Part shown: positions 1,315-45,982 of the stretch, piece after piece
Layout: each line of letters opens with the position of its first letter
Position numbering within the stretch: the stretch's first letter is position 1
Assembly (NCBI GenBank): GCA_020055645.1
Contig: CM034550.1
Coordinates: 18,737,001 to 18,801,000, forward strand
Length of the DNA stretch: 64,000 nt
DNA from: Tomocerus qinae
Lineage: Eukaryota; Arthropoda; Collembola; Entomobryomorpha; Tomoceridae
Direction: 5' to 3'
Notes under the pieces: model-generated
The model's database searches: none
Seen by the model: only the letters and a program-made list of their open reading frames with translations
What the model was told of the DNA's origin: nothing
Program-made: the position numbers and the translations under genes

Positions 1315-1468
1315 TTATACCTCTATATGGATTTTTCCAATCAGTTCGTCTCTCTCTTTCTTTAAGACTTCCAAATTATTCTCTTCTTTACTGTTGTGAA
1401 TCCCAGTCATTTCAGCCAATGCAATTTGAGCGTCCTTTTCAGACAGCTTCGTCGTCAAGCTTTTCTGT
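1315..1468 (-). CDS. brp: brp last coding exon: ELKS-like C-terminal tail
   Basis: The acceptor (ATTTTTACAG) joins in phase with the 1611-1906 exon to give LFDLRQKSL. The segment LSEKDAQIALAE followed by LKKERDELIGKI corresponds to the ISEKDANIALLE and LKREKDRLV region of vertebrate ERC1/ERC2. The protein ends in H-I-E-V and a TAA stop. The final GTATAA could also act as a weak donor, because the identical hexamer is used as a donor after the exon at 11466-11975. Another C-terminus therefore cannot be excluded. The remembered Drosophila Bruchpilot lacks this tail. Confidence 0.85.
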
Positions 1469-4400
1469 CTGTAAAAATTACACATGATAAACAAAGTTGA
1501 ACATGCTCGTCATAAATGAGTAAAACCTTATATAGTATGTATAAATACATAAACATCCCTATGAATGTTAATGCTATATTTATTACGTGTTATTTTATAC
1601 ATTCTATTACCTCAAATCAAATAACTCTGAACTTCTCTCGCTAATTTCAATTTCCAGGGCTGTAATTTGCGTTTTTAATTCTTGAATTAACTTTTCATCT
1701 TCTTCGTGTTGGGATCTTGCATCAAATTCCCTTTGCTCAGCCAAATTAATAGTTTGTCTCAATGCTTCTTCTAATTCTAAGCATCTTTGATCTCTCTGGT
1801 CGGCAAGCTTGATGATTTGTTCAAATTCTTTGGAATGTATATCAAGACTTTTTTCAACTTGGGCCAGATTCTTTTTTAAATTATCATTTTCTTGGATCAA
1901 TCCATCCTAAATAATATAAAAGATACACTTATACTTGCAAGAATACATATGCGAAAATTCATATTATCATAAATTCTTCTGTACCTTGTCTTAAATGGTG
2001 ATACACACGATTAATTTGAAGATGGATTATTATGTAAAGAATGCAATGCAAAAAACAAGCTTTCGTTAGACAAATAAATACACAAATACGTCTTAGGCTA
2101 TTTTCAACCTAAAATCATATCGTTAAAAATAAAATCAGACTGCATAATAAATTGCATGGACTTGGTAATTATATATTTTTTAAGTTTCGAATTTACTTTT
2201 ACTTCGATTCGGTCAGCACAATCAATCACTTACTACTCACTATCTATATAAACAACCAAACAGACTAGAATATAATGTAAGTAATCTGATTCAGCCAGAT
2301 ATGTCAAAATCCAGAACAATGAAACTGATGCCTGGAATATTTCACTTTAGTCATGTCAACATAGTATTTCACATTATCATACACAGACAGACAACCACCA
2401 CTATATACCATAGCATTCAAGTTTTACAACATTCAATATGTTCACACTTAGTAATTAGGTTAACATTATTCTTATTAGTGTTTCATTAATTATGTTAGAT
2501 ATATGTATTAGTTTATTATTACTTATGGATATTATTATCTTATTTTTATGAATTTATATTCATAAAGTACATTCATTTCATGCATGTTAAAACACTCTGG
2601 ATTATTTTTGTGTTGTATAAGTATCTGTAGATATTATATCGGCTACTTTTACTACGATACTGTTCAACTACACGTTTGAAACACAAATATACATTAAAAG
2701 GTAAATAAAAATGAAAAAGAATGTTTATAATAATACATTTTTGCTACCCATCGGATACCCCGTATTTTTGACTATTGGAGGAAATTGAGACAAATCCCCC
2801 AGTTAATTAGTAACAATAACAATGTTAGTTCTGTGAATACTTTTGATAATAAGTTATGTCTGCACTATATTTGTTCGAGTACACGCATAACGAACGTTAC
2901 AGATCTTCATTCAACTTGAACAAACAATACATAGGATTCGTCAACAGTCAACCAACTATTACTCACTTACTTATGAACAGTTCATTTTATGTATGTTTTC
3001 TTTTCGAAAAAAATAAATCCATTTATTGTTAACAGTTTTTTTTAAGTTTACGTAGTATGTCTTGCGACCTGACTCGACTTGAACATTGAATATTGGACAA
3101 TTAACCAACATTTAACTTATTTAATAATGTAAGACGACTGTGGTATAGTATAGTAGTTAATATATTAGTTTTATAGGATTATTAACGTGTAAATTAGTTC
3201 TTCCGACGTTGCGGCACTTTATAAAGACCCAATGAGGCAATATCTATGTAATTACGTCATAATATAAGCATGAGGAAAAGTTGAAGGATTTGGACAAAAA
3301 TTAATTTTCTCGTTAATTATAATTGTAAATGTAAGTAATACTTCTGTATGGTTTATGGCAGTGGTATGTTTATTATCCAAATTATATGTATTGTTGTAAG
3401 TAGTGTTTTATGTGCTAGTTATTCATTTTCTCGCTCACTCCATCATCAGTATAGTAGTGTGCTTTCAAGGAAAACAATTCCCGGAATCCCATATAAGGCA
3501 TCCGTTTATAATCAACGTTCTCCTGCACTGTGCAATTTAAGAACGTAACGATAAAACGCAAACCAATCAATAGATAGTAGGTCCTCAATAAAAATGATAC
3601 AGGTATAGATCATTAACAAACTTTGTATGCTTACAAAAAATAGTTTAGTATTAATATATCGAAAATATCAGCAACATGACTAATTAGCTAACGTAAATGG
3701 TTATTTTTCATGTGTGTATTGTATACTGATTAATACGTCCAATTTACTATCTACTGATTCCAAATCCCACAAACCCAATTTTTTACAGTATTAGTATTGC
3801 TTTCTCAATTCTACCTATCTATATATATAAGTCATAGGCAGTATATCTTAATTTTAAGCTTATATGTAGTATAGTAGATCAATATTGTATTATAACCTGT
3901 TCTGGCTATATATGCTTTGTATAGTTTGTATGGAGAAGTTACACAATACCGATTTATTACTCACATCAAGCGTAGGTGATGCATTTTATTCAATCCATGA
4001 TTTACATTGCGACCAATTTAACTCCATAAATCCTAAAAGCACAAAGGATGTCTACAGAAATGACAGATATTAGTAATATGCATGTGTGTATACTTATGCA
4101 CTTCGGCCAGCCGACTCTATCTCTAAAAGAAGCCAATAAATTTTATCTGGAGAGGAATTTCTGTAAAGTTTGGCTACTCTATCAATATATTTCTAAATGA
4201 TCTATATACAGTAAAGCTGTAACTCTAAGTGCACTAAATTGAATTAGTAATGTGTTGAAGGGACAGAAAGAAGGATGGGAGGGTCTAGTAAGTATATTAT
4301 GTCATAGTGTTCTTTATATTTGATACCTGATACCTTACAGATTAACTTGATTCTAAAAATATTCTCTCCGCATAAATAATAATGGATTATTGCCAACGCA

Positions 4401-7400
4401 ATTCCTTATTGTACTCGAAGCCAATTGAAGCTTATATAGGCCGTGTGTTTGTGTTATGTTCTGTAGTTAGTAAGGTATCTGGCTTTTTTTGATAATGAGC
4501 CGAAATTCGAAAGAACATTGTACATAGGTATGTGATAAAGGTCAACGTGCCCGCACGTGTAATGTATGAGCACCCGTAAAAAGTTTTAATTAGTTAGCTA
4601 AGGGATGATTGGGTGTATAGCTTTTATTAATATTCTATTGTAACAGTAAGAAAGGCTGCTGATTAATTCACTGTTCTCTCTCTGCATCAGTACAGATAGT
4701 ACAGAAGGATTGGAATTGAATGTGTACTCTTCTAAATAGTAATTAATTGCAAGTAGACAAGAAGACGTCACGTTAGTATTATTAATTACATAGTATGTAT
4801 GTCTGCTCTAAGTAATTCTCATCTCTACAGACTCCTTTAAATATACCTTGTGGGGATTGTTGCTTTTAGTATTGCCCATTCTCGATCAGTTTCTCACGAC
4901 TTACATATACCCATTTGACTACTAAGAATCCTGGGTGGGTTGGATTTAATTAATATTATTGGGCATAGCAAAACTACATGCAAATTTCAATAATCAAAGG
5001 AGACTATGGAATTCAATTGGTCGCAATGCTATCAACGATAGAACGCTATGCTTGAACCACCAAGTAATTAGATTTAAATATCTTAGGCTTTAACTAACTA
5101 TTAATCAACTTATCGTGAAGAATACGCCTTGTCTTATATACCAACAATATCTATACTAAACTATGAACCTTTTGACTTGGTATCTTATCTTACGTAATAT
5201 ATATATGTATCCGAGTTTAATATATTTGTTAGTAACTTATGTTTTATTATTGTTAGTTATATTTATACTTATATCAATATGATTTGTATCTTTATGTATA
5301 GGTAATGATTCATCATAATTTCAGACGTGGAATTGAACATTCTACGAGCTAAACAACGAGACGAGATGTTCGCATTTTCTTGTTATTGAGTTAGTGAGTT
5401 GTACAATTACAATTAGTTTTTAGTCCATAGTCCTTGTCTTGAAATGTTATATTTAATTATTGCATGTATGCATGGAATGACTGATTGATTGGAATTCTTA
5501 AAGCTGTTGTTATTTAGGTTAGCTGATTAGAATTTGATTTGTAATACTTATAATAACCATCCAGGTATATTACGATTACTTATTAGTATATATGTATATA
5601 GTATATGTATGTAGGTAGGTAAAGGTTTGATTTTTATATTACATTAGAGAAGTCACACATGGATTTGATTTGGGTTTGCTTTTTGCATGCATCATGCAAT
5701 TAGTATTCAATAAAATCTTGAAATACCTTAAACTACATATTATCTAGAGCTGCATCTTTCCATAACATTAGGTTATGTGCTAAACAAGGCTAATTAATTA
5801 TTGTATTATGACTAGAATGCTGTCCACACGACTGCCTGCTGATTATTCCTTGTCCCTACATGTACATTGTATGTTTTCATTTCTCCAGTAGAAGAGAGTC
5901 ATTATTAACCAGGCTGTTATTTAGTATATCCATGTAGCACAGGTGAGTCCAGTACTAGTGGACAAATAAGGCTTGAGTTGTGATCTGATGTATGTAATTG
6001 TATTTCATTACTGTAGTCGTACGTAATTAGTATTGAGTCAACTTATAAATACAGTACAAAGTACAGAGTTATGCAACTTGGTTCAGAACAGATAGACAAG
6101 AGATTCAAGAGCACTCAGCTAGTATAGGTATCTACTATGTATATAGTTGTCGAGATTTAAGGGATAAGGTGTATAGTGTTTTGAGGCAATTTCCATATTG
6201 GTAGAAGATATACTGTGGGACCACAGTGGGGTTTCAGGGTCAATATTCGGGGCTTAGTAGTGGTAGGTTAGGTCGAATTTCAGACAAGTTCCATAGATTA
6301 GAGAGATATAGTGTGTGGTAGGTTTTGTAGTGGGACAGGCTGAGAAGAGGAATGCAATGCAACTGATCATTAGTAGTTTTGTTATTAGAAGAGTGATTTT
6401 AGGAAACCGGCTGGGCCCTGTGGTTACACACACAAACAACAAAGTGTAAGTAATTGGCTCATGTCATGTAATGTAAATACTAGATTAGTTTCCAACACAC
6501 ACACAATGCAAACAGGAAATTGCCATTTAATATTTACCTGGTCACTGGACGATTTCTGTTTCTCCACCCGAAGGGCTCTAATTTAAACAAATTGGAACAG
6601 TTAAACTTTGGTAATGTACACAAATGTGAATGATAGAATCATAACTTACTCTTGTAGTTGATGAATAGTTTTATCTTTTGTGTTTTGTTCTTCTTGACTC
6701 ATTTTCATGAGTTGTAGCAACCTCTCCATTTCTCCTTGGATTCTATGAGCCTCTGCTTTGGCATTTTCCATCTCCTTCTTATAAGTCTCCAAGTCTTTTA
6801 CCATAGCTTGAGTATTTCCAGCAGCTGCAGCTTGACCTTTGTTTTGCTGTTGTTGTTGCTGCATTTGTTGTTGATGTTGTTGGTGCATCTGCTGCATTTG
6901 CTGCTTTTGGATTTGTAATTCGCTAATAAGAGCGTCAATCTCTTGTGACTGCGATTTAACAGTTTGGTCAAGTTCTTCAAGTTTTCTTTGCTTGTCTTGA
7001 ATGCCCCGATTATTTGCATCCAATTTTTGGCGACTCTCTTCTAATTGTCGTTTTTGCTCATCGATTTGTTTTCTTAATTTTTCTACCTCGACAGTGCTAG
7101 TACTAGATTGGGATTGAGAGCTTTGAGTTACTTGGTGCAGCTTTTGTTGTAGTTGGGCAATATCCATCTGTGTGAATTAAAAAAATGTATGAATTAGGAC
7201 AGGAAGGAATATTTTACTACTTACATTTTCTAGTTTACTTACCTGGCGCTTTTCTAATTCTTCTACTAGAGACTCCAACTGACTTTGCAATCGGTTTCGG
7301 TCGTTTTCAGCCACCTTTTTGAGTTTGTCCATCTCAGCACCAAACATTTTCTCCTTTTCGCACTTTTCTTTGAACTTGGCTTCGATATCTAAGAATCTCT

Positions 7401-10400
7401 TTCTCTCATCTTGCAGAACTTTCTTAATTTTCCCGAATTCTGTATCATATTCTCCGAGTTTAGATCTCAGTAGTTGCAATTCCTTATCCTTATCGTCACC
7501 CTGGACTCGGGAGTTGAGCTCTCGCTGAAATTGTACCAAAAGTTCTTGGGATTTTTCTAGTTGCGTGACAAGTTCGTCTCTTTCTTTGGTTAACTGCATC
7601 ATTTCATGTTCCATCTTAGACATCTGCTTTTCATATTTGTCCTGTTGGGATTTATATCTTTCCAGCTTTTCTTGGATTTTGTGCTGGTCCTTAGCCTTAT
7701 GTTGCAACTCCGCATTTTGATTATCAAGCATTTGTTTCATTTTGCTCATGTCATTTAATTTCTCCTCTAGCACTTGCCTCAGTTTCAAGTTTTCAGTTTG
7801 TTTTTCTTGTATTTCGGCAGCGAATTTGTCCACATCAGCATTAGATTTACTTTGACTAGTGATTTGCTGTTGTAGCTTCGTAATTTCATTTGTTTTTGCT
7901 GTAAGTTCAGCTTTAAGATTTTCGACTTCCTTAATCCTAGTATTTAATTCTTTGCTAATAGTTTTCAAATTATTTTGTTCCTTATCTAAATTTAATTTTA
8001 TTGCTTGGTTTTCCGCAACAAGCTTTTCGAAATCTTCATTGTGCTTTCTCTCGACTCCCGACAGAACTTCGGACTTTTCTTTAGTGATTTTCATATTTTC
8101 ATTCTTTACTTCAGCCAGTTCAGATCGAAGTTTGTTAACATCTCTAGATCTCTCTTCCAATTGTGTCTTAATAATATTGTATTCCCTAGTTTTTTCTTCA
8201 ACGTTGTTTTTAGCGGATAGGAGTTCTCGATTGATTCTTTCCTTTTCAGGATCGAATTTGTAGCCCGAAATTTCTTCTTTAAGTTTCTTTATTTCCGTTT
8301 CTAAATTCCGTTTTAATTCGGATGCGGAGTCAAGTTCTCTATTTTGTCTGTCTAGTTTCTCCTTTAGCCTTGAAATCTCTACGGATGATTTGTCAACATC
8401 TTCTTTACTCTTGTCTAGTTGCGCCATGTATTTATCTATTTGCTGAACTAATTTCCTATTTTCTTCCGCATAGTTAGACTTGGTTTCTTCTGGCGTTCGT
8501 TCACTGCTTTCCAATTTCTCGATTTTCTGTCGGAGACTCTCCTCAAGCTCTTGAAGCTTAACAATTTTTAACATGTTACGATCGTTTTCTTTCTCCATTA
8601 ATAACTTCTCCTTTTCTAAGTCTTCTATATTTGACTTTAATTTATTCATTTCGGATTGAAGTCGGGTGTTTTGTAAGGAAGTGGACTCCATTTCCTGACG
8701 CAGGCGGTTAAGATCCTCTATAATTCATTAATTAATGATCATAGCAATTTAATGTAGTTATACTTCATATATATTTCCCTTTGACAACTCACATGCAACT
8801 TCCTACTCTCATCATTCCTACCTAAACACGCTAATCTTGATCAAAGTACTTGGTATACAAATTCCTGCCTGTCATCAATTGACAAAAAAATATTCCTGAG
8901 CCATTAGTGGTTTGGTAGACAGAGAATACAATTATTGTAGTTCCCTAAATTAGATTCTAGTTGAAAGTTATTAAAAGACTACGTTCCTCAAGTCTCAATT
9001 TATTCAATTGCGTTTATTTATTCTGACAAAACCATTAGAGAGAAAGGAAACTGGTGTAAGTAGGTATAACGTAATGAGCGTCTTTGAGTGTTTTGCTTTC
9101 ACTCTATGAACTGTCTAGAGTAACATTAAGCCCAGCGGAGTAAATTGATAAAATTAACTAGCATCCGGTTCATATTCTACTGTGCAGACAGCACATTGGG
9201 TCTTGTCCTCTTCTGCCCTCGTACTTTTTGCTTTGATGCTTATTCTGCAGTATTTCAGTATTCCATCGGCTTCACGAAGAGAAACGTGCATGAACTGCAA
9301 ATGTTTCGTATCAAGGAAAAGAAAGCAATAAAAGCCTTGTGTGATATGAAAACGATCTACTAGAACACAACAGAATGCTATACGGTATACACTTTAACTC
9401 TTATAATAAGGAAGACTGCTACTTGTAGGACAAGGGAGAACTAAATCGATGAATTTTCTGTTGCGTAATGTAATACGACTATGAGGGAGGTAAGTATAGA
9501 GCTGGTGGGTGTTTCTACGATATACATAAATATATTCCGTTTCAAGTCTCATTCCAACAAGAACTAAAACAGGAAACGGGGACGGGGCACCTACTACAGT
9601 GTACGGAAAAGAGACAGCGATAAACATTTTCGAGAGGAAACCAAAATCAACACCAGGGTATTCATTCGACAAAAAGGCTAGATGTCTAAGACTATCTCTC
9701 TGCATAATGCAATATGCTAACTAAGTTAAAGTGAACTACGTAGGTTTACGTATCTGTGTTAACCAACCGAGGAAAACTTACCCGAATGTTTCTCCTGGGA
9801 CGCGTGTGCTCTTCCGTATTGTGTGTGCAGTCTGTCCAGCTCTACTTGTAGTTTGGTGACCTCTTCGGTTGCTTTCTCCTTCGCATCTTTCTCCTTCCGT
9901 AACTCAAAAATAAGTTTGTCCAATTTCTCCCTTCCGATTTCCACTTCCACTTTAAACCGCTCGTTGTCATCTTTGTATTTATCTTCCACCTCTTTGAGTC
10001 GGGATAACTGTAGACAATTCCGATCGTAGATGTCTTGTAGTTTTGAATTTTCATCCCGCAGCTTATTAATAGTAAGGTTCGTTTTGTCTAGTTCATTCAG
10101 ATTGGTTTCCAATTTGGAATTCACTCTGTAGAGTTCTGATTGACATCGTTCATATTTCTCAAGAACACGATCTAACTCTAACTTCAAACAATCTCTTTCT
10201 TCCAAAAGTTTCCCTGAGCTTAATTGACTCTTCTCTAATTTATCTCGGATAATCTCTATTTCTGTTACAATGGATTCTTTTTCGGAGATCAATTTTTGAT
10301 TGGTAATATGGACTTTTTCCAATCTCTCTTGTATAAGTTCCAGCTCACTTTGCAAAGACTCTTTGTCTCTCATTGCTTTACTATGTTGGGACTGTAGCAA

Positions 10401-13400
10401 ATCTATTCTCTCTTGAACCCGCTCGTTTTCACTCGAAATATTCTCCTTTTCCTTCTGAAGTCTTTGCAATTGCATTAGACTCTTATCCGATTTATCTCGC
10501 GTTCTATCTAATTCCATTTGGAGCTGCTCCTTTTCTTTTTGCAGACGCGTTGATTGTCCCAGAGCTTTGTCCAGCTGCACTTGGATGTTCTCGTAGTCAT
10601 ACAACAACTTCTCACGTTCATTTTGCAGCTGAAACAGAGTAACACATAAATCCAATTAGCATATATACTCTACCATTCCAATTTGCATTGACATACTTCA
10701 ACCTATCTGTAGTACATAATCATAATAATATAGCAGAGACTGATTATATTGTACTAGTAGTTTTAGTTTGATTCTTTTTTGTTACAAATTGCATTTTTGC
10801 TATTACAAAATGTGCATTACAGCCACTGTTAAGAAAAATTGTGGAAAACATTATGATTTTGACTGCCAATTATATCCATGCTTTTACTTTGTTAACACGG
10901 AGAATAAAAGCAGGAACATAATGTGCATTTAATACACGTAAAAGGAATGGTGTGCCCATTTCCCGTCTGTTTATAACTTGGATGTAAAGAAAAGTACATC
11001 TATTACACATTTGAAAGGAAAGTTTTGTCATTATCTGGATTCTCGGAGTACAGTGCAGTTTTTGTTAGTTTTAGTGTATCATTAAAACTATATTATTACA
11101 GAACAGAACACTTGATATGTATATTAAATGAAAGCAGACAGACAAATATTAAACAAATAAAGCAAAATGAATGCAATGTAAAATGTAACTGGCTGGATTC
11201 GTATCATGAACAGAGCCTTAAGGCAAAGCCACATGAGTCTGTATGTGAAAATAGTAAAAAGTTTTATTATGCTGCATTGATTTTCTGGCTATTGTTCCCA
11301 CAAAAGCTCAAAAGTATCTCACATCAGATTGCGCAAGTTTTGTCGCATAAAAAGTACAAAGTAGATAGAGAGAGATCCCGGACTCCACTCTATTTCATTG
11401 ATGGCAGAATGTGGAAAAGTAGTAGAATATGTAGAAGTACATTACAACAAGAAATAATTTTATACCCTTCTGGCTTCCTGGACACTTTTATCAAGTTTTT
11501 CCTGTACTCGGTCTAATTCCCCTTGAGCCTTGTCAAAAGCCTGTTGTGTTTTGTCAATTTGAAGCTGCGTTTTGCCAAGAGTAGCCTGACTCCTCTCTAA
11601 TTCCTCTTTGAGCTTTTCCAGCTCCATTGACGCCTTGTCTTTTTCCGAATGAATCCTCTGTAACACAACTTGACTCCGTTCATATTCATCTTTGATATTA
11701 TCCTTCTCACTTTGTGCGTTTTCAAGTTTGGCTTTCAATCGGTAAATCTCGCCTTGAGACTTTTCTATTTTTTCTTGCATCTGTTCTAATTCGGTACGAG
11801 CACGTTCGTAATCTGATTGATTCATTCGCAGTTCAGCTTGAGAGCGTCTTAAATCCGCTGTTACTCTGTCATACTTTTCTTGAAGACGATCCAACTCTTG
11901 ACTATTATTGAAAGTATTCCGGCCAAAAGTTGTCTGACTTCGTTCCAAGTCTGTTCTCAGCCTTTCGCTTTCCGACTTTTTATTTTTACATATATATATG
12001 CATATCATTTGTATAATTAGTGGGTCATGACCATCATGTGTTGATATTCATATGTCATTGCAGTTTTTTCACAGGTCACAATGCAGGTTGGAGTTAATCA
12101 CAATCACATGAATGACATGTTAGGAAAATACAAACAAGAAACACAAAGCATTAGATCCAAAATGTTCATCGCTCCTGGTCTTCATTTTATAATTTTCTCT
12201 GTAATACAAAACTACTTCTAATGTGTAACTAACTTAATTAACTACAAATCATTTACTATTCTACTGTCAACAATCCAAACTCCAAACACTACATTTGTGT
12301 TAAATACTCAAAAACACAATAAACAAGAAACTTTACAGTACATACAAAAACTAGACTCAACTAAAAGTATCACAGAAAATTAAAACTTACAAATACGTCT
12401 ACAATACTCTACACTATTCTTAAACTTCAAAAACATTCAAAAGAGCCAAACTAAATAAAAAACATTTTTAATTTCATTGTTCATATCACAGAAGTATATA
12501 GTAAAAGTTTATATAGCGGATCACTGTGCATTCAATTGACAAACTACTGACTAGTAGACACACTGTATTATGTTTGCTACAAAAATAGTTTTGTATGTAG
12601 GAGGACTTTAATGATTTCAGATGTGCAGTCTAAATTGCTCTAAAGTGCATCTACATCGTATGAAAAGCTTACTTAGGTATTTATATAGGACAAAATTACA
12701 AAAATACAAACTAGACAAAAATAATTTAGTTCTACATCTAATTGTACATTTCTTAAAACGCTTGCTTGCAATTTGCAGTAATGATAATCACTATAGTATA
12801 AATAGCTGTGCAAAATGCACTACGTAAACGTTATTAGCTGGGTGCATTTGTATTACGTTGCCAAAAAGTTCATTTTTTTATCGAATTGCACTTAGATTGC
12901 ACTTAGATATTAAAAGTGAAAAGTTTAATTAGATGTAATAAATATTGAATGTTTTACATACTGTTTTTGTTCTGAGATATGAACTTTCAAGTGAGAAAGT
13001 AGCCGTTTAGGTTAGTAGTTATACATGAATTAACATCTATTCATGCTAGCATTACATTGGTTTAAGGAAAATTACCTTGTCTTGTAAACGTACCTTCAAT
13101 CGATCATTCTCTAGCTCTAATTTTGTTACGCGTTGTCTATGAGATTCCCATTCAGAACTAGTTTTTCCAACTTCTGATTGAACTTTTTCCAGCTCGGCTT
13201 TACATTTACCTAATTCTGATTGAGATTGCTCAAGTTTTGTTTCAACTCTTTCCTGCAACAACACAAAAAACAACATTCATTGATCCCGATCTTTTATAAA
13301 TCAAATGCACAATAGTATAAACCTCTCAACTCCAGAAACTATGAATGAATCTTTGAATCTGACCCAAAAAGAACTTATAAATATTAATTTTATGGAATTA

Positions 13401-16400
13401 ACTGGAAGAATTATTGCATAAAGATGTCAAAAAGCATTCATTGTGAACAAAGACTTGAATTTGACCCAAAAATTTCCTACGCAGGCTACACTAACTGTAT
13501 TTTTTACATATTTAATAGAATTGGAAGAATGATTGTAATAGCTATCATAAAGGCACTTTGGGGGAAACAATTATAAATAGATAACCTTTTCAGCGATGGC
13601 TCTATCCAGCCTGACTTGCAATTTTTCTACATCGGATTCTAAAGTATGAACTTTGAGTTTGGATTCGGCCACATCTCTTTCATGTAATTCACGCTCTTCA
13701 TGTTTGTCTTGTTCTGCGCGATCTCTTTGATCCCGCAGTTGATTTATTTGCTTGTCTTTGTCAAGAATGGCTTCCTCGAGACTCGACAACCCACCGGAAG
13801 TATCCAGGAAAGGATGATGGAGATGGTGATGCATTAGCATTGATCCACCCGGTTGCATTGTCATTCCCGGCTGTCCTGGTTGTGGCTGTTGTTGCTGCTG
13901 CTGTTGCACGGCAGCTACGGCAGTCGCTTGTTGATATTGAGCCAATCTATTTAAAATCAGAAAAGATCAGTATTCTGAACATCTAAACACTGCAGTGAGA
14001 GAATTCCCTTGCCTTTTACATATTTGAAATGTAAAATCATATCGTAGCATATGAAAAAGTGGTATGCATACGTATAGCGTCCGTGGTAAATATTAATTTT
14101 TTGATTATCTTGTAAATACCTCGCCCTAGCCATATCTACTTGGTTATCCTTTTCCTTCAACAGATCTTCTAGATTTTCAATCTTCCTTTGCAGTACATTT
14201 ATTTTTCGGTCTTTAATCTCCATTTGGTCACGGATTTCATTAAATTCATTGGCAAAACGATTTCTTTCTTGAGCTGCTTGCAAAGCTGCGTTTGTCTTCT
14301 TTTCAATTATTCGATTCTTTTCTTCTATTCTTGTACGTAATTCATCCACCTAAGATCACAGTCAAGTCAAACGCTTAAATATCTATTAATAGACAATGCC
14401 TGCATTCAAAATATTTATAACTGTAAATAAAAAGATGTATGGATACTCAGTACTTGGGAAGCAGAAAATTGTAGCATGCATTTTAGATTTGTTAGTATAA
14501 GCTTATAAATGCTAATTATACATTACAATTATTTTTTCACCCCCTTTTACCAATGAAGTTCGTGAGCTGTAAATAGAAAGGTGCTTCTTTAGCCGATTTC
14601 GAAACAAATCCAAGTAAATACTTGTTTTTAGTAATGCTACAGACTAAAGTGCACAGATAAAAGATAGTAGGTGTAACAACATGTTATCTCTGTCACGTAC
14701 TAGATATACATATACAATACAGAGTACATAATCTATTGCGTCAATTGTTATTAAAACAAGTATAGTAGGCTACAATTATGCATAATAAATGTCCATAAAG
14801 AGCGGACGCAAGTGACGTTAGTAGTATAGAGAAATTAGTTAACGAAGCTGGCACGGCAAAGGCAAAAGAGTTGAGAGAACGTGACTCAGATGCAGAAATT
14901 AAGATTGTGTCGTTGTATAAACTCACACTCACATCAGCCTGCAACATATTGTAATGCTCTTCTTTCGCACAAAGAGATTCTTTGAGAACGGCAATGTGTC
15001 TTTGGTAGTCTTGTTGCTGTTCTTCCAATGTCTTCATCTTGGCTGTCATGGACATTATTTCTTGGTCTCTCTTCTGTACTTCCATTCGTAACTCATCGAT
15101 CTATTGAGTTCCCAAATTGAATTTGTGAGAAAAACAGGAAATGACAATTAAGGTATCGTAGTAGTAGTAAAAGGAAATATCCATAATTTACTTATCTGCT
15201 CTTTACTACAGATCTACATGCAAAGGAAAAGCATTTACTTGTTTTTGAGCTAGAAGCTGCATTTGCTGTAACATTGCTCGCTCTTCCTCTTTACCTGTTG
15301 CAGAAATTTACATATAGAGACAGAGAATAGAGTACTAAGGCTTATTTCGAACTGTTATATATAATAAAAATTTCAATGGATTGCATGACAAGGAAAGATA
15401 GACGTATCCTACACTTTCTATGATGTATTTATAGTACAAGTGTTTCGTATATAGTACAAGTACATGCGACTACTTACCAATCCCTTTGTTTTGTAACATC
15501 TCCAGAAGTTTCTTTATTGACTCATCTCGGGCAATCAGAGTTTGCTTTTGAGATTCCAATCGCAGCTCTAGCTCCTGCAAATAAAAACGAGTCCTTGTAA
15601 TTAACATTGAAATGAACAAAACTATCTCAATCCTGGTAGGATAAAGTAGAAAGAAATACAAATAATAATAGAACTATCTGTAATCTGTGTACGGCGTGCT
15701 TTATTGAGGAAGATAATAGTAAACCTTAATAGTTTCTCTGAGAATACGGATTTCCCTAACGAGGTGTTCATTTTCTGATATTAGGGCTTCCATTTGTCTT
15801 TGCATTTCCATTGAAGCTCCACCGCGTAGTGTGCGTATTCGGAGTTCTTCTTCCAATTGGCGGACGAGGAGAGCTTGTTTCTACCAGTCAATATTTACAT
15901 TTGAGAATAATTGTTTGCAACTGGCATTTTAGTTTGAGAAAATAAGGTACCTACCTGGTTTTCCGAATTAAGAAGTTTGAGTTGATCGGAGAGAAGAGAG
16001 TATCTGGCAGATTCTTCTTTTCTAAGCGCTCTCTCTTTCTTAAGTTCGGGAGACCAGAAGGTTTTAATACTGTGCATACTTGATCCAAGCTTTTGATTAG
16101 TTAATTCAAGCTCTTTTTTAAGATTGCCGAGTTCTCTTTGAAATTCAGAATTTTGTATTTGAAGTTCTCCCAAGTAAGTATTCGGATCGCCGCCGCCGCC
16201 CATTGGCCCACCTGATCTCATTGGTACAGGAGCCCCAGAGCCCGAAGAATGGCGACTTCGGTTCAGGATTGACACAGGTTGTTGCTGCGGACCTGGATTT
16301 CCGTAGTAATCATCTTCGACAAAATAGTTTGGATCTTGAGCTACTGATCGATAGGATAACATTGTCTTTACAGATTATAATCCCATTGTTTGCTTTATTA

Positions 16401-22400: not shown

Positions 22401-23840
22401 TTCATTATTATTGTCATCGTTTGGCCGTATTTTAGTTATATTTTGGCTTTCTTATTTTATAAACATGGTTTGGAGAGGGTTGGTATCATCATGGTATGTT
22501 CATGGTAAATGGTAGGGTATGGGTTGGTTAGCTTAATAATAGTTTTATTATTTATACTTACTTTTAGTAGTTTAGAAGTTCAAAGGTACGAATTAAAGGG
22601 AATGCTCGAGATATTTAATTATAAATGTGTACATAATGATATTTCTCTTTTTTTAAATATGTATCTGTACATTATTGGAGGAGAGGGTCAGATCAAATAA
22701 AGGAAATGATCGGTCTCTTTCTGTGGATTGTTCTGTACTTTCAATCAAAACGGAATCGATGTTCATTGGATAAAACAAGTACAATTTGGTTTCATTCACG
22801 TTATTGGTTCCATACACCACATTTACCAATAGTTTTTCCCATTTTTCTTTTTTCAATCTTTCTGTCCAGAGTATTGCTTCATGTTCATCTTATTATATAT
22901 AGTATAGTAATTATAGTAGTATATAGTAGCATAGTAAACAAGAGATATTTATATTTATATACATAATTCATTTCAAAGTTATTTCTATCAGTATTATAAT
23001 ATATATACAGTTTAATTCAATTTATATACATAACAATTTTGAATTGAATTTTTACTTTTTTCATTATTAATGTCATTAATGTCTCTAGTTAAATAAATAT
23101 ACATAATACATGAGTATATATGTATAAGTAGGTATAAGTAGTTTATATGTATCGTTGCACATAGTCCAGTGTACAGATATGCAACGTAACCGAACCAAAG
23201 ATTCATATTGTCATTGTGTAATGTCATATCTTGGGATGTGGCCTATTATACCCTTGGTCACATATTAAGTATACGCTTACGATATTTATATTTACACAGG
23301 AAGACTGCTACAATAGTATATATATTTATACATATGCAACGTGATTTGCTCTGATTTTCTGATGTGACTAGTTTCACTATTTAGTACCATCTAATTTGAT
23401 AACTACATTAACTTCTATTTAAAACATTAGCTAGTTATAGCTCTACGATTATTGCGACTAGGCTATACGCTTCAAAAAATTCTCAACAATCACAAGGATC
23501 TATAACTATAGATCTAAAGCTAGTATCCACCTGAGGTTTAAACAAATGACCACATTTTGTGTATGCACATAATTGCTATTTTAAGAAGGTAGGCTTATAT
23601 TTATGTATATATAACGATTAATCAGCTAATGAGAGTATTAGGGTAAAAATTGGGAGAAGAAGGCTTTCGTGTGGCATCCGAGCAAGACTTGAACATCTGA
23701 CTGAACTGACTTATTATTTTCACTCTCCATCCAATCGTTCTCCTCTTCATTTACAAAGTACAGTCCTTTTCATTCGGATGAACGTTTTTATTTTCTTTCT
23801 CAATCAATCAACAACGCTTGAGTGATGACTAATCCGGCTT
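19488..23840. other. Intergenic/UTR region between the calcium-channel subunit gene and brp
   Basis: No coding exon is supported. Possible content is the brp promoter and 5' UTR exon(s), plus the 3' UTR of the alpha2delta gene at the high end. A possible 5' UTR acceptor (AAAACAG) lies just upstream of the brp ATG at 19494-19500. The short plus-strand ORFs between 20638 and 22966 overlap in several frames and look random. Confidence 0.55.
23787..23792 (-). terminator. Candidate poly(A) signal of the alpha2delta gene
   Basis: TTTATT on the plus strand reads AATAAA on the minus strand, about 50 nt past the TGA stop at 23841-23843. If used, the 3' UTR would be very short. Confidence 0.4.
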
Positions 23841-26800
23841 TCATTGTTGATGCAGATGTAAGAGGATTAACAGCATGACTAGCAGAGTCACCTCGGGTAT
23901 TAAGGTACTTCCTGCTCCGCAGTCTTCTTTTATGTAATCCTCCTATTAAATATAAACATACAAATTATTGTAAATTACTTGATAAAATTTTATTTTTTAT
24001 TAGTAAGAAAAGTTGATCCAATTTCCAATGGAAAAGGCACCTCAGAGTTATACGATTGACACTGCGTCGGCCTTTGTCTGTACAGAGGAATGTAGGGAAT
24101 TCGGCAAAGTTGTGTAAGGACATCACTTTCTGATGTCGTATTCTCAAATTCGTCGTCCACAGGATAGTTGATCTCCTTCGGCTTAATTGTGGTGCTGTTA
24201 AGGCCGCAACGACATTTCCCATCCGTCACAACCAAAATGAGGTTTGTATGAGGGATGTAGTGAACATTGAAGTATCTGGAGTTAATAAAATCATTTACTC
24301 AGGATTTTCCTTGTTTACTCAACAAATTCCTCCAATATAACATTCCATACTCCTTTCACCTTGTAAATGAAATACCAATTGCTGACAAAATATTTCTCCA
24401 AGAATTTTTACACGAAAATTAAACTTCGCTTTCACGTTGAGAGAATTTACACATAAATAATTGCAAATATTTAAGTGTGATAATATTTAAGTTATAAAAT
24501 TGGTGTGTACTGAGAAAAAGTTTTCCAAAGATATTTTCGTGTGTATAGGCACAAAAGTGAAAAGTTTATGGTGAAAGGACTATGGAAAGTTGTGTAAGAG
24601 GTTGAATGAATGTTTCTTAATTAATTCTGCTAACCCATCGCATCCACTATGGCCACATTTGGTAAGAAGGCCGTGGTAGCTGAAGTTGTGCGTATTGTAG
24701 GAGGACCCATAGGTGTAGAGTAAGTACTCTTTATCACACGGTCTTAACCGTGACCTATTCATGGTGCTCATGTCGACTGGAACTGTGGTATCATCATTTG
24801 GCGAACTTTCGTCTTTTGCAATTACTATAGAAAATCAAGCAATGAAATCCCAATTACTCTACTGCTTATACCAAAAGAAACTTGTGAAAATTTGCAATAG
24901 TTTGAGAACTACTAATCAGTAAGTATCGTACCGTTAGCAAAAACAGAGGAGAAATCTGGGTTTATCATACTATGAAAATTGAGTTGCAAAGCAAGCCAGG
25001 CGAGATGTGCTATGAACCAGCTGAACAGTCTTCGCATGTGATCTAATGGCTATAGAAAACAAAATGCAAGTGTGATTGACAAATTTATGTTGATTTGCAT
25101 TCGTAACAGTGACAAAACTTTGTATTCAAATGTGATGTTGCAATTTGCAATTATGTGAGCATTCAGTGCATCGTGGTAAAGAAAACTTACAGTAGAAAGA
25201 AAACTTGCAAAGCTAGATTTCGCTGTTGGATGTGTACACACGGCCTGGTAGTCTACTACTCGTACTCTTCTATAAACATCACTATTCACCAACATTTCCA
25301 TGACCATACCATCAATCTCCCCGAAGAATTTTCCTAGTTGGGAACAAACACCGCCATTTCAACCCTAATCATATTTACTCTACAATTATCATAATATTAT
25401 ACATTCACGCATTTTAAATACCAGTGTCTTCATGTTTTTCAGAAATCAATATAAAACCGTTGTCATCCAAAACGAAGCAATCAAATTCTCCAGAATCGCA
25501 CGTTTTCTTACAACTTTGATCTCCTCTTTCGCTGCACTGTAATTGAAAATCAATTTTAATCAATAATTTATATTCTCTTTTTACCTAAATCAATCTATAG
25601 AAATAAATAATTAAAAGCCATTCAGAAATTCAGAGTTGTTAAGATCGTTAAATTAATAATTAATGTTGAAATAAAACTGAATTGAAGGGATTTACCGTGG
25701 AGGTGACTTCGAAAAACTTTTCAGCCCATATAGTATGATTTAACTGGATACCAGCAACAGCAACAGGAGCATGTCGGTTGTTCTTCTTGACGTAAATGGC
25801 CCGAGTTGCGGTTACAGTAGTGTCATTCCGAGTTCCAGCATCAAACGGCACGGAGAAAACGAAGGAATCTGGGTCAAATTCATATCTCTCCACCGCTCTC
25901 TTGTACCACAATTCTTCTGTTGCTCTCGGGTTCTCCTCGATGAAGCGACTATAGCAAGTAGAGCATATTTTATTCATCTTAATCGTTTAGTCTTTAGATG
26001 GAAGTACCCATTTCATGCAATGTGGATATTCCATTAAAACAAGCAATGAAGGAAGATACCTGTATGGTATCCTAAACACGTTTAACCATCGGATATTTAT
26101 GGAAATGGCTATTGAGCAAAATACTTGGTAAAAGCAACTAAAGAAACATTTAGGAGAATTACTTGTATGTGGCCGAAGACGGTTGAAAGGTGACAGGGTC
26201 AAATTGTATCCAACGTGTAAGACCACTTCGCGTGGCAATAAACGACATGATGATTCCATACAGCTTGATGAATTGGCTGCATGATAAATACCAATCAGTA
26301 CAAAGTTAGAAAACATCTTTTTTCAAATTACCTGTATAGTGCTTTTCACAACAAAAACCAACAGATAAGTATATATAAACACCACAAAATTGTTTTAGTC
26401 AGTAAAATTAAATAATTTAATAATAAGTATTTGCAGATAAACGGGGCATTTGTTTCATAACAATTTTTAAAGCTATAATTGATTACATTCATTCTGCAAA
26501 TACACAGCACAAGACAATTTTACAACTACCTAAGCTTCATTCACACTCACATAGACTCAATAATAGATAAAATTTATACTAGAATAACATCCAGAAATTT
26601 TGCTACCCATTTATCGCCTAATTTTTCTGAGATAAATATTCTGGTTACATAATTAGCTGCTTAGCGGAGCCTAATAGTTAATTACCTCGTCTACACATAA
26701 CCTTTTAGAGTTCCCAAAGACCAAATCTCAAGGAATCACGTTTTTATAAGGGCAAGTACCTTCCCGAATGTTAATGTAGGATATAGCAATGGCTATATAC

Positions 26801-29800
26801 TTAAGTGAAGAGGTTATATGTCTATAGTAAACTATAGAATGATGATGAGTTATATTATTTACCTTGGCATAAGTGCAAATAGTTTTGCAAGCGTGCTTTG
26901 CGTTTAAATTAGAGCGTGAGAAAATGGGAAATGCTTATTAATTAGATTAGTAAAGGTGACAATTAGTTTACAAAAGTGATTATGATTAGGTACTTGTATA
27001 AATGCATCATTAACATCAATTAGGATTAGACTTTTTGTGCATAATTAATTAAGATGGTATGAATAGTGATATAATGAGTATTTCATTTACAAGATAAGAT
27101 AGACTTACGAATCGTGCTTGTTGAATTTCCAGAGTTTCTTGGATGTGAAGACGTCAGTAACATTGGCATCAAATACAAGACTTTGAACAAGATCTCTATC
27201 ACCTGTAGGAATTCAATAAATATTTCTATCGGAATTCCATGTACACATGAGGAAACTTATATGAAAAGCATAGTTCCTTACAAACGTAAACATCAGATTC
27301 AAGGAATTTGTCTTTATTAGAATTTCCTGCAGAATGTCTCGGTCGATTAATTCCAACCCCAGTATTTCTCCACGCCCATGAATTTCTAGCCCGTTGGATT
27401 TCCTTGAGAAAATGCAATAGAAGGTCTTCTTTCGTTTTTTCATCTCCTTTCGTTCCTGTAGGTTTGTGGACTGTATACGGTTGGTAATAATCATGGCCAC
27501 CGCGAATATATTCGCAATAATTCCATTTTGGATTGATTTTCCAGTCTCGTTGTGTTGATAGGGAAAGGTCTGATTTCAGACTGTCTTCTGACTCCGGTTT
27601 GTCAAAAAATGTAGTCACGTCCATGCCTTGGGTGTCTCGTCGCAGCTCTAATTCTCCGTGGAATTTGTACAAATTAGATGGAACTGATATTCCTAGAGTG
27701 TAAGGAGTCTGCCCGATTTTCATGTACTCGTATCGTTGCTTCCTCGTCGTTACTCGTCTCTGTAATCAAAGAAATATTTTCACAATTACTTGCATACTTT
27801 TTCCTGTTCTCAGAACATACAAGTATGTATTAATTTGCTTTACTTACAAATTTATCTTGATGAATCCGGACTTTGAGAGTTTTGTAACCTTTATCTTGGT
27901 CAATCATGTCCTGCCTCATCTACGGTTAGTAAAAATTGATTTTCAAACAATTAAAAATAAACAATCGAATCATTAACAACCTATCTACTCCATATTAGAC
28001 AATTAAATTATGCCAAAGTAATTTTTTAATGGAATTTCAAGCGACCAGGTGGAAAATAAAAAAAAAGAATTTACTTCTAAAAGGGACGAATCGTTATTTC
28101 GGAAATTATCTTCAGCGTCTATTAGTTCCACCTCTGTTAGATCAACAGTGTTGTAATGCGGTTTCAGGACTTCATTGTTCAGCTGCAGAACCAACGAAAT
28201 ACAAATGATTTAAATATGTCGAATTGTTGTAACAAACATAGATCATTTTAAGTTGTAAATTATTTCTTAGCATTACCATTGGCCTCCAGTCGGGGTGGAA
28301 GACAACGTATCCATTATTAGTAACCAAGAATGAGTATCCATTTACTCCTAGCTTGAAAGGAGATACAATTCTCTTGAGTTCTTTGATAGGAACATCCGTT
28401 CCAGCAACACCGAGGAAAATTGCTATGCGTTCCTGAATAATGTCATCAGAGAAAATTTTATAAGTTTGTCATCATAAAAGATATCAAGCTGCACCTGTAA
28501 CCCCAATGTTAGTGAATGTGTTTTGGAGGAACATAGGTTTTAGGATTAACTTATAAAAAATGAAATAATTGCACAGATGCAAGCGAAAATGTCAATAGTT
28601 AAAAAGTTTTACGCTTTTCTACATTACTACAGATGCTGCATCTACATTATTTATTGCTTCTTACTTGTTGCTACACGTGTTATTGACACAGTGAGTTTAA
28701 TCGAGCAATATGTAGTAACTTTTGTTAGAAAGATACGGGTAAGTACTACATAAATAAAGTGCAAATTAAAAAACCTATGTTCCTTTAAATACAAAAGTGC
28801 AGAGTAAAGAAAAGTAGAAGCAAAACATGAATACATCTAAAGCATTATGAAATTAAACGATATAAATGGTTAAAAATAAATGATACCTCAATAATTTCTT
28901 CGATAGTGTGTGTCTGGTTCTTGAATTTACTGATTTTTTTCTATATCTCAAATTATACTCATTAGGTTCACAAATAGAGAATATCATTTAAAAGGATATT
29001 TCAAAAGTCAGGTCACGTTTCACACTTTCTATCCTTCAAGTTAAAATGTTAACCATAAAAAAAGATTTACTTCTGTATAGGAAATCTCAGGAAATTCGAA
29101 TCATTATATTTTCCATTGAAAACTTTAAACCGCAAATGACGAAATGGGCTGAGAGTAATTGACGCATCGCAAAATGCAGTCTCGGAGTAATTTTGCTCGT
29201 ACACATTAACAATTATCGTGCTTGTTGTTTGCTACTACAAAGCTTTAATACAAGGATTATTATCCTAGCACATGAATCCAAATGAAAATTATTATAATGT
29301 GCGTTACACGTTACAATACGAAGCAAATCAAAACATTGCAAGACAACTCAAAATAAATCCCATCAAATTATTCGGGGCTGAAAGAAACTGAATCATAAAG
29401 TGTATATAGTATAATCTCTTAGAAGCATTGTCAATTTCATTGAAGGAAAAAAGTCGAATAGGTAATTGAAACGGACCGATTCTGTTGTGCCTTGTCTTAC
29501 GGTGGAATTTCTTTGATCGAAAACGGGCACCGAAGCTGAAATCATAAACCGCATCCCATCTTCCTTTACTAGCAATGGCTGGTTATCTCCTCGTGTCTGT
29601 AAATTGTCAGAAAATTATATTATGAAGGTTTTCAATAATATTTCTCAAGAAATAATAAATATCTTAAATCTATAATTACAGGTGACTTTACTGCAATATC
29701 TGTCTAGCATAACAAAAAGCCATGACATATTATTTTCATGATCTTACGGTAATATCAGCATAGACTGGAGTCCATGTAACTTCATGAGTTTGATGCATAA

Positions 29801-32800
29801 CCATCGGTCTGGACATTACGGGCATGTACTTCAAAACCTGCTCCTGAACTTCACTAAGTGTAGCTACGTGCACATAGAATCCTGGTATAAAAACAAAAAA
29901 ATTATTTTTCTTACCTTGTAATACTATTTTTAAGAAATTATGATTTTTAATTTTTTAATTTAATAATTTTGTTGTGTATCAAAAATATTTAATTAGTACC
30001 TTTGTTAGCACAAGCCATCCACATGATCTCTCTTTTGTCCGTAACTTCTCTGCCGATGAGATATGTAAAGACTCGAACATGATGCATAGGATTTTGCCGT
30101 GCTTTGAATATCTCCTCGTAATTGTAGGGAGCCCCATCAGAAACAATCATAATAGCTTGATTACACTGACTGCTCTCATTATCGTTCAAATGCTAAAACG
30201 TGTAAAAAGTCGGCAGACACTTTAGTACAATATCATCCCTTTTATAATCAGATTTAACTAATCCTAATGTAAGTGTCATTAGAACGCTCCGACGATCTAA
30301 TACCTTTTCCAGAATATCAAAGGCAAGGTTGAGGGCGGAGGTGAAGTTAGAAATTCCGGCTGTCTGATCTTGATCCAGTCCTACTCTAAATTCTCTCAAG
30401 TTCTCTAAATTCGCCTATAATCCCAACAAACCAAATTATGTATTCCATGCACAGAATAGAATGGGTAAAAGGGAAAATAATTTAATTGAGAACAAAATTC
30501 TACAAAATACAAATCATAACTTTGACACATTACAATAATCTTTTTTGTATTTTGGGTTAGCAAAGACATTTATTTTATGCTTATTTCACACAATAAACAA
30601 TAAATCTGTTAATCTATATTTCAGAATAAGAGCTTTAATAGAAAATGTGGATATTGTAATGTATAGAGTAGAAATGATACAAAAATTCTTTAAATATTTC
30701 GGACTCGTTTTACAGTGAATATAATTGGCAATTTAGTAGTTTGGAAAATGGTTATTACATAAAATCAGTCCAGTGATATTGGTATAGTACTATAGTATAG
30801 TAATTCATAAATAGATACAAAGTGAATGAAAATATATGGGAAATAAGACAGGGGAGAGAGATAGGGGACGAACCTGAACAAGTTTATCTTTGAAACATGG
30901 AACAACTGGTGTGGTATCCTCGGAGAAATTGAATACATTTACATAGTCATTTTCAGTCAGAGTGTCAAGAATAGTGTTGACGACATGCTTGGCAATTTCT
31001 CTTCTTATGCCTGTCATTGATCCAGACGTGTCGTGTAATATTATCATATTCTTCGGACTATTTGCTGCTGAAATATACCAAGGGCGCATACGGCAGTCAT
31101 ACAAATCCGGAGTGTGCTTGTTCACGTTTTCATTCGGCCACTTCACCGCTATATCATTCCCCAACATTAATTTTACGCATCACAAACGTGATTATTTTGA
31201 GCACGTGTTTAATATCATTATTCGTAAGAACAATCGAAATACAAACCTGGATACTGCCGTAGAAAACCAGTGGCTGATCCAAAGTATTGCCAGAAAAGGG
31301 TTGGATTTTGTTCATAATTTGATCGAAATGTTTCATCCATATTTGCAGACCATCCGATTGATTCCAGAACATCATCTTCTGTATAGACGAAACAATTTGT
31401 TAGCACTTTAATCAATATTCTCTTCGACAGTTTCAGCTCTATGCTATCTCCCGTATTATTTGGGAGATTGAAAATGAGAATTAGAAGGGTTTTCATAGCT
31501 ATGACTTATTAATATTAATCCTCAGATGGAAATGTGGTTTATGTCAATTAAAAAGGTTTAAGCCTAGTATCGCTGTATTATCTAGCTGCAAATGATTTGC
31601 TTCCCTGGATTCTAGATTCTAGTCCAGTTACACAATAAATTTACATAATTCCTATTTTCATAATGTTTACCATCGTTAGTAAAATCACTATTGTGAGTCA
31701 GCTGATTAAAATATTTTTTCCGAGTACTGTAAATTGCAATTAGAATTCCAAACGAAATAATAGATTGAAGTAGGATTTATTAGTGTATTAGTATGATGAT
31801 AGGTTAATATTTAGATTATGTACATATTCGTATATTTGATTACGTGATCACGATCGTTGTTAATCGGCATGATTTGTGCATTATTGTGAAACAAAGTAGT
31901 AATGATAGGGTATAAAGTTCATAGGGTTGTGTTGGATGGCAGGTATGGTTGGTGATGCTACCACGTATCATTATGCAATGCATTAAGCAACTCAGGTTAT
32001 GACGTTATAGATTTTATCGATCAAACTGAAACCAGGATTGAATGTAGGTATGTATGTACATATGAGTAAAAGGTAATTAGATTGTCTACGCTTCCAGCTT
32101 GAAAGCCTAAAATCGTTCAAGAGTGAAATCAAATAAATTACTTTTGTCATAGATGAAAGTAGGAACATGAATAGAGCTGTGGTAGGAATTGACGGGCACT
32201 CCGAAATGATGATCAAATTTCAAATCAAGATGATGCTCCGCACCGCCCTCCTCTCCTTCGTCTTTATTCAGCTTTTTCGCATTGTAGTACGTTGCGGGGG
32301 GCTTCGGACGATTATCTACGGGCTTCGTGTAGAACTCATAAGCTTTCTCCTCTGCCCACCACATTATTTTCTGCAAAATTTTAACCATTTTATATAGCTT
32401 CAATCATAGAATTTTTTTTTCAAAATACACCCCAAAAATTTCTATTCCCAGCCCAAAATTCTTTACCTTCAATCTAGCCGTTATTTTTTTATTTTTACTA
32501 TACAGTACAATTCTTCAAGGCTATTTAAGTACCTATGCAATACAAAAATAGAAAATGTGGGAAAAGGGAGTACTTACCTTAATAGCTTCAACTTTCTCCT
32601 TTAGAGCTGTGTGAATTTCATTGCCCATATCGTTAATAATTTTGTCTAATTCTATTTTTCTCACATCCCCATTAACACTGTTTTGGAATCTCTGTAATAT
32701 AAGTAATATTGTCAACATTCGCATAAAAATAAACAAGTTGCACTAGGATTACTTATGCATGTAGAATTGCATTCCATAGGGAATGAATGCATCACACAAG

Positions 32801-33769
32801 GTCGCACGTATATAGGTAAGCTTTAGGTATATACCACATTAAATGCATGCATTCTATTAACAACTTAGATAATCAATATTCATGTTGCTTTCAGGCAATT
32901 GAAGTTTTGTCAATGTTGTGTCAATACCATCATTCCTCCATACTTTCATTAACACATAATGATATTTGTAAAATAAGTCTAGTACTCATAAAATATTCGT
33001 TACGTCAAATCATCTGCATATTAAATGCATTAATATTTATAACAAATCGCTAAAAGACAATTGCATGTCCATTTGGTGATAAAAAATTAAAATTAAAATT
33101 GTCACAATATTTCAGTTGCAATAAAAAATCAATACTTCTCAACTGGATTGAAACGGTGAAGCAGAGTAAATAAATACACAATGTTTTTCAAAGTGTATCT
33201 TGCACTAACGTGTCAGTTTAAAAATTATGTATCAAGCATATAGAACTACTACTTAAATTGACAACAATTTTTACGTTGAATTAGCATATTATATTATTGT
33301 GTGATTGGTCACAGCTTATTGTGGATGAAAAGGGCTAATTAAAGCAAGCAAAGCAAAGTTGATGTAAAATAATTTAAGTGAATCGTACATTTTGAAGTTC
33401 TGTGTATTTAGTAACAGATCTTCCGAATTCGAATAAAGGATTTCCAAATTTGGAGGCCCAATTTTCCAACCTGAAAAGCATAAATTAAAAGAAGTTGTGA
33501 AAGAAGAAAAGAAGAACCGAACCTGAAGAAGAGAAAAAGAAAAACTTTCTCCGTATTGTTATTGTAATGGTATGTGATGTATGTGCTTACAATTGTTTAG
33601 ATATTCCTTTATCTTGATGAGGATCAGCACTAACACAATTAGAATAGAGAATGAGGAAGACGAGTATGGAAGAATATAAGCTTGATCGTATATGAGAATG
33701 AATAGATAAATGTGCACAGATTTTGTCTCTAAACCTAAAGCGAACAAAGTTTTTGGCCTCATTCTCCAT
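23841..33769 (-). CDS. stj: Voltage-gated calcium channel alpha2delta subunit, alpha2delta-3/straightjacket type
   Basis: Auxiliary subunit that traffics Cav channels to presynaptic membranes. Exons (high to low): 33591-33769, 33389-33470, 32578-32691, 32142-32370, 31247-31378, 30874-31148, 30304-30414, 30000-30192, 29748-29881, 29501-29596, 28277-28432, 28075-28182, 27848-27919, 27282-27759, 27109-27202, 26163-26276, 25696-25948, 25422-25536, 25191-25333, 24932-25049, 24635-24824, 24041-24275, 23841-23942. Total 3723 nt, 1240 aa, phases all compatible. Signal peptide about 30-48 (cleavage after CVSA). Then WASKFG and FWQYFGSATGFLRQYP before the VWA domain, with an intact MIDAS DTSGS at 285-289. 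FTYLIGRE and MACANKG follow, then Cache-type segments (GVAGTDVPIKEL, FSVPFDAG, FFGEIDG), CDRDLVQSLVFDA, and HYIPHTNL near the C-terminus. The hydrophobic tail at about 1223-1240 suggests a GPI signal. FTYLIGRE and GTDVP are characteristic of alpha2delta-3/4 rather than alpha2delta-1/2. Confidence 0.95.
23943..24040 (-). other. Short last intron of alpha2delta with weak donor; open frame continues into it
   Basis: 98-nt intron between GAG|GTGCCT and TTTAATAG|GAGGAT. Splicing gives YNSEEDYIKEDCGAG, as in the family. If retained, the frame runs 16 more codons to a TAA at 23990-23992 and loses the hydrophobic tail. Confidence 0.75.
26277..27108 (-). other. alpha2delta intron
   Basis: 832-nt intron (TC|GTAAGT to ATCATGCAG|C). 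No coding content seen. Confidence 0.6.
28433..29500 (-). other. alpha2delta intron
   Basis: 1068-nt intron between ACC|GTAAGA and ATTATTCAG|GAACGC, joining NST to ERIAIFLGVAG. The open frame downstream of the donor (to 29393) is intronic read-through, not an exon. Confidence 0.6.
30415..30873 (-). other. alpha2delta intron inside the VWA domain
   Basis: 459-nt intron joining KDKLVQ to ANLENLREF. No exon found inside it. Confidence 0.55.
31379..32141 (-). other. alpha2delta intron
   Basis: 763-nt intron (AAA A|GTAATT to TCTATACAG|AAGATG). It joins IYDK to the DDVLESIGW segment in phase. No other coding content. Confidence 0.6.
32692..33388 (-). other. alpha2delta intron
   Basis: 697-nt intron between TELQN and RFQNSV. 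No other coding content seen. Confidence 0.6.
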
Positions 33770-34812: not shown

Positions 34813-34831
34813 CTCTCTCTCTCTCTCTCTC
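34813..34831. repeat. (CT)n microsatellite
   Basis: Nineteen bases of uninterrupted CT alternation in the intergenic region upstream of the alpha2delta gene. On the strand of that gene it reads GA, which could serve as a GAGA-type promoter element. That role is speculative. Confidence 0.8.
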
Positions 34832-36748: not shown

Positions 36749-36757
36749 TGAATCATA
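36749..36757 (+). other. LMBRD2: LMBRD2 5' UTR segment before the start codon
   Basis: An acceptor (GTTTAAACAG) ends at 36748, nine bases before the ATG. The start codon is therefore near the beginning of the second transcribed exon if the 5' UTR intron is real. Confidence 0.5.
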
Positions 36758-43574: not shown

Positions 43575-43588
43575 CACACACACACACA
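43575..43588. repeat. (CA)7 microsatellite
   Basis: Seven uninterrupted CA units. Confidence 0.8.
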
Positions 43589-45954: not shown

Positions 45955-45982
45955 CACACACACACACACACATACATACATT
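45955..45982. repeat. (CA)n/(CATA)n compound microsatellite
   Basis: Nine CA units followed directly by CATA units in intergenic DNA. Confidence 0.8.

Follow-up and report, generated by a model that had tools for sequence, protein, structure and literature searches.

The 64,000-nucleotide stretch of the collembolan Tomocerus qinae analyzed here (the window; GenBank assembly GCA_020055645.1, contig CM034550.1, positions 18,737,001 to 18,801,000 of the forward strand) carries a gene for an alpha2delta calcium-channel subunit and, as its immediate neighbor, a bruchpilot/ELKS (ERC) gene, hereafter brp. The alpha2delta subunit controls channel abundance and Brp/ELKS scaffolds the active zone; their meeting point is the presynaptic calcium channel. 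Although the pairing holds, the linkage is not new. The adjacency is probably a retained piece of an ancestral animal neighborhood, the published Wnt5-7 block that includes both erc1/2 and cacna2d, and the interpretation as ancient linkage is most likely right in outline, known already, and unproven in its regulatory part. A second result, concerning the architecture of the brp product, may matter more than the adjacency itself and is taken up below.

Both genes are known here from DNA-derived gene models in one genome. The brp model (1315..19487, minus strand; 17 exons, 2080 amino acids), recognized by the Pfam family Cast, reads from an ATG at 19487 to a stop at 1315. The alpha2delta model (23841..33769, minus strand; 23 exons, 1240 amino acids), recognized by Pfam and by a match in the Protein Data Bank (PDB), reads from an ATG at 33769 to its one stop at 23841. 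The two lie head-to-tail on the same strand with a spacing of 4353 bp (19488-23840). The first-pass annotation of this DNA had described brp at 1315-19487 and alpha2delta at 23841-33769 on one strand, about 4.35 kb apart with no gene between them, and the models together with scans of the gap bear this out. The sequence around them, with a G+C content of 29-38% in 2-kb steps, contains spliced animal genes. Models were built with a splice-aware gene finder written for this work and trained on the clear exons of the window; applied to four regions, it returned by design one gene per region, namely alpha2delta (minus), brp (minus), an LMBR1-family gene (plus), and a LIM-domain gene (plus).

No gene was recognized between alpha2delta and brp by Pfam, tRNA, Rfam, or gene-finder checks of the gap. 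The intergenic stretch gave no Pfam family in any of its six frames, and neither a tRNA nor an Rfam family at gathering threshold was detected anywhere in the window. Its longest open reading frame beginning with ATG encodes 86 amino acids, within the range of 300 shuffled sequences (median of maxima 67, 95th percentile 99). The best gene-like chains there reach scores of 3.4 on the plus strand and 7.8 on the minus strand, compared to 142.6 and 642.2 for the two genes. These chains do exceed the maxima of 10 shuffles each (2.1 on the plus and 4.8 on the minus strand), so that the gap may hold a very small gene or one more exon, and further 5' exons of brp may lie there.

Linkage of the same two families has been described in other animals. 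In a comparison of 49 animal genomes, block 953 (the "Wnt5-7 block") comprises wnt5, wnt7, fbxl14, atxn10, erc1/2, cacna1d, cacna2d, ninj1/ninj2, and dcp1a/dcp1b, and it is inferred for the bilaterian ancestor (PMC8851819). To qualify as a block in that study, a group must include three or more member genes separated by no more than five others, so that an isolated erc-cacna2d pair would not count as one (PMC8851819). Among vertebrates Wnt5a is flanked by Erc2 and Cacna2d3, and Erc1 is found near Fbxl14 at Wnt5b; the lamprey Wnt5 gene has Cacna2d3 and Adipor2 on one side, and Erc1/2 and Fbxl14 are placed near Wnt5 in Ciona and the fruit fly, with no specification in the relevant passage of which gene occurs in which species (PMC2922100). 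ERC and CACNA2D are also among the neighboring families of one vertebrate paralogon (PMC3826523), and links among WNT5/7, ERC1/2, and FBXL14 have been described as older ones (PMC9750109). No publication was found whose accessible text places brp by name in the Wnt5-7 block, erc1/2 being the family named. The proposal of ancient linkage made for this DNA is thus supported, and it had already been published (PMC8851819, PMC2922100, PMC3826523). The accompanying claim that both human copies keep the pair stands in part: Erc2 and Cacna2d3 do lie around Wnt5a, but for the second vertebrate copy, at Wnt5b, the relevant passages name Erc1, Fbxl14, and Adipor2 and not CACNA2D4, and do not state the ERC1-CACNA2D4 half of the claim (PMC2922100).

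The window pair resembles the Wnt5-7 block in that erc1/2 and cacna2d share one block, and differs from it in that its two genes are immediate tandem neighbors and scans of parts of the window turned up none of the seven remaining members (PMC8851819). The likeness to the vertebrate Wnt5a and Wnt5b regions and to the ERC/CACNA2D paralogon is again that the same two families are linked (PMC2922100, PMC3826523); in the vertebrate Wnt5a region, however, Wnt5a sits between Erc2 and Cacna2d3, which is not so in the window (PMC2922100). These published linkages also bear on the possibility that the adjacency arose by chance or secondarily, for which it can be said that only two genes in one genome are concerned. 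With random gene order and an assumed 10,000-20,000 genes (N), two named genes would be neighbors with a probability of about 2/N, or 1e-4 to 2e-4, and vertebrates show linkage of these same families (PMC2922100, PMC3826523). Taken together, the published linkage and the low chance expectation make accidental adjacency a poor explanation, and it is considered very improbable.

Under retention of the ancestral neighborhood, the brp-alpha2delta pair would descend from the Wnt5-7 block; in this lineage its two genes are immediate neighbors, with no other member found in the parts scanned. Slow decay of an old linkage, and not a shared switch, would be the likeliest reason that they are still together. 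The search for other block members consisted of six-frame Pfam scans of 19488-23840, 33770-36751, 40164-51020, and 61597-64000, with further scans of 1-1314 on the minus strand, of 1907-6537 on both strands, and of the alpha2delta gene on its plus strand. In these stretches there was no match to a family of Wnt, F-box, ataxin-10, ion-channel, ninjurin, or Dcp1 type, and the only match of any kind was a sub-threshold one to DAG1 (E 0.068). With the scans covering these parts, two of the nine Wnt5-7 block families were found in the window, which ends to the left of brp. Beyond alpha2delta, the LMBR1-family and LIM-domain genes are the next two recognized, and neither belongs to the block.

The same scans bear on the idea that erc and cacna2d are bystanders, held in place by regulatory elements of Wnt5 or Wnt7 located in their introns, an arrangement that is compatible with ancestral origin. 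Data consistent with a block of this kind have been presented for wnt7-atxn10, and erc1/2 and cacna2d belong to the same microsyntenic block (PMC8851819); the stretches scanned here gave no Wnt match. The sequence to the left of brp is outside the window, and Wnt5 could still be located there, but as the reason for the present adjacency such a bystander effect appears unlikely.

Several points weigh against retention of the ancestral neighborhood. The pair is described here from one arthropod genome, so that its persistence in the insect lineage is a presumption. Scans of parts of the window did not turn up wnt5, wnt7, fbxl14, atxn10, cacna1d, ninj, or dcp1. Vertebrate ERC and CACNA2D, which we take to be convergently transcribed, differ in arrangement from the tandem window pair, so that gene order is not collinear. 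The text of PMC8851819, in the sections dealing with the block, does not name the species that keep the erc-cacna2d pair. Shuffled genomes in the same study yielded 45, 48, or 56 blocks at the bilaterian node versus 256 for the real ones, so that any single block is not beyond doubt (PMC8851819).

Selected co-regulation, in which the adjacency would be kept by common neuronal enhancers or a common chromatin domain, is likewise compatible with ancestral origin. The two proteins work at the presynaptic calcium channel (PMC9352347, PMC5830537), and the spacing of 4353 bp on one strand is what such an arrangement might look like. In most of the bilaterians compared, the Wnt5-7 block nevertheless has a low gene density, and its members are functionally unrelated, which argues that there is no co-expression constraint (PMC8851819) and favors retained ancestral linkage over shared regulation. 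An AATAAA poly(A)-signal-like hexamer at 23787..23792 (minus strand), about 50 bp past the alpha2delta stop, would also fit independent transcripts. The AT-rich gap is, however, full of this hexamer, with 11 copies on its minus strand, so the one near the stop is weak evidence for separate transcripts. Co-regulation is accordingly regarded as quite improbable as the reason that the genes have remained together. An operon or read-through transcript was considered as well and not adopted, the same hexamer speaking weakly against it. The window adds a case of two ancient-block members standing directly side by side, with no other member found nearby. Isolated pairs of this sort can help to tell whether linkage persists through inertia or through regulatory constraint.

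The alpha2delta model required manual attention. The automatic 3' end was wrong and there was an artifact near the first intron; the last six exons were set from splice-site scores and from anchor peptides chosen by visual inspection. Three Pfam families are above cut-off in the product, VWA_N (2.1e-31), VWA (2.3e-10), and VGCC_alpha2 (9.5e-18), and dCache_1 falls just under its 45-bit cut-off (5.6e-11, 42.9 bits). The order VWA_N, VWA, Cache, VGCC_alpha2 is that expected for the family, and the VWA domain carries the motif DTSGS. A hydrophobic leader and an anchor-like hydrophobic C-terminal tail are visible by eye in the 1240-residue model. Against the PDB, a 1021-residue partial model matched CACNA2D1 with an E value of 7.6e-111 and CACHD1 with only 4.9e-13; the window gene is closer to CACNA2D than to CACHD1.

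Membership in the alpha2delta-3/4 class, the class to which the gene had first been assigned, is favored by a higher identity over the same region to a fragment of human alpha2delta-3 (37.8%, the fragment sequence being taken without a database record) than to alpha2delta-1 from the PDB (30.6%). This was a pairwise comparison limited to alpha2delta-1 and -3, and since pairwise identity is not phylogeny the class is suggested and not proven. Among the Drosophila proteins, straightjacket shows its greatest similarity to alpha2delta-2 of mouse and rat, stolid shows it to mouse alpha2delta-3, and one-to-one matching has been called unsafe (PMC7426832). The window gene is for that reason not given the name of an insect paralog. 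A nested LRTM-like gene, of the kind reported near vertebrate Cacna2d3, was considered and not adopted; the plus strand of the T. qinae gene gave no Pfam family in three of three frames.

The modeled brp product shows homology to ELKS on both sides of a long coiled coil. Pfam Cast scans were run exon by exon and on joined parts of brp. In the N-terminal exons (13586..16343, minus strand) separate matches fall within Cast 2-493, of which those to positions 2-71 (81.4 bits), 138-173, 291-348, and 348-423 are above the 29.1-bit cut-off and that to 434-493 is just under it (28.4 bits). Cast positions 72-137 and 174-290 were unmatched in the exons scanned, and exon 15704-15880 had no Cast match at 0.001. 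The coiled coil that follows (7243..13252, minus strand) occupies residues 743-1745, a total of 1003 residues in four exons from 13076-13252 to 7243-8717. It has no Cast match, none of its three thirds matching at E<=1, and the introns flanking it at either end are of phase 0. The remaining 335 residues, encoded by four exons (1315..7167, minus strand), match Cast 464-754 in a single stretch when joined (E 1.1e-13, 50.9 bits). Taken singly, the C-terminal exons are weaker (6649-7176, 3.2e-8, 32.7 bits; 1318-1509, 1.2e-5, 24.2 bits, under cut-off), exon 1610-1906 alone has no Cast match, and the last 149 residues alone match Cast 629-754 under cut-off (E 0.00097). Generic coiled-coil similarity was rejected as the source of the C-terminal match, as the reversed sequence (1/1), shuffles preserving heptad position (3/3), and the insert thirds are all Cast-negative. 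Because the N- and C-terminal matches share about 30 profile positions, the break point is approximate.

These matches suggest, with somewhat better than even expectation, that arthropod Brp, instead of being an N-terminal ELKS half joined to an unrelated tail, is an ELKS protein interrupted by an inserted coiled coil some 1000 residues long, the C-terminal region of ELKS being kept in the last part of the gene. The phase-0 introns at both ends mean that skipping the insert would preserve the reading frame, and a short, ELKS-like isoform produced in frame would thus be possible; matching phases of this kind are expected by chance about one time in three. As in vertebrate and nematode ELKS/ERC, the Cast matches occur in order from position 2 to 754; the difference is that in the window gene they are interrupted near Cast 464-493 by the 1003-residue coiled coil and that the search for a GIWA tail in the window found none. 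Drosophila Bruchpilot, compared here by its published description, likewise has an ELKS-like N-terminal part followed by a long coiled coil (PMC5830537, PMC4935463, PMC5728718), and ELKS homology is given for its N-terminus (PMC5728718). Its C-terminal part has, in contrast, been called unrelated to ELKS (PMC5830537, PMC4935463), and one figure legend names a conserved stretch at the C-terminus in mouse and worm and none in the fly (PMC5830537), whereas the last 335 residues of the window protein match Cast 464-754. No published description of a split ELKS was found in the accessible text of the literature, an absence that is weak evidence. If confirmed in other insects, this architecture would alter the functional comparison of fly Brp with vertebrate ELKS, because their C-terminal parts are now treated as unrelated.

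The 3' end of brp is close to the left edge of the window. The stop at 1315 sits directly after a weak possible splice donor (GAG followed by gtataa; score -0.35), and the gene may accordingly extend beyond the edge. The modeled C-terminus is HIEV, and the PDZ-binding tail of ELKS type, GIWA, was not found in a window past which brp may run. Within 1-1314, none of the three minus-strand frames matched a Pfam family. The true 3' end, with or without a GIWA tail, may thus lie to the left of the window. An extra exon of the automatic model (3439-3522) was dropped as doubtful; at 84 nucleotides it leaves the frame the same whether it is included or not. The intron that would contain it (1907-6537) gave no Pfam family in six of six frames, and comparison of exon 15898-16374 with the PDB brought no match at E 0.1. 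Scans of virus, bacterial, and archaeal contig collections with the N-terminal part of brp and the VWA region of alpha2delta yielded no confirmed locus (4/4 scans), as expected there.

Upstream of alpha2delta and divergent from it is the LMBR1-family membrane protein gene (36752-40163, plus strand), with PF04791 detected in five of five open reading frames scanned. It is followed by nearly 11 kb (40164-51020) in which no Pfam family exceeded cut-off in six frames and gene-finder scores were under the shuffled mean. The product of the LIM-domain gene (51026-61596, plus strand) is long, contains acidic and low-complexity stretches and a single LIM domain, and resembles CRP1 (2.7e-21) and EPLIN (5.5e-17), its best PDB matches. 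Beyond it, an open reading frame of 127 codons (62485-62865, minus strand) contains a possible zinc ribbon (DZR, E 0.029, sub-threshold).

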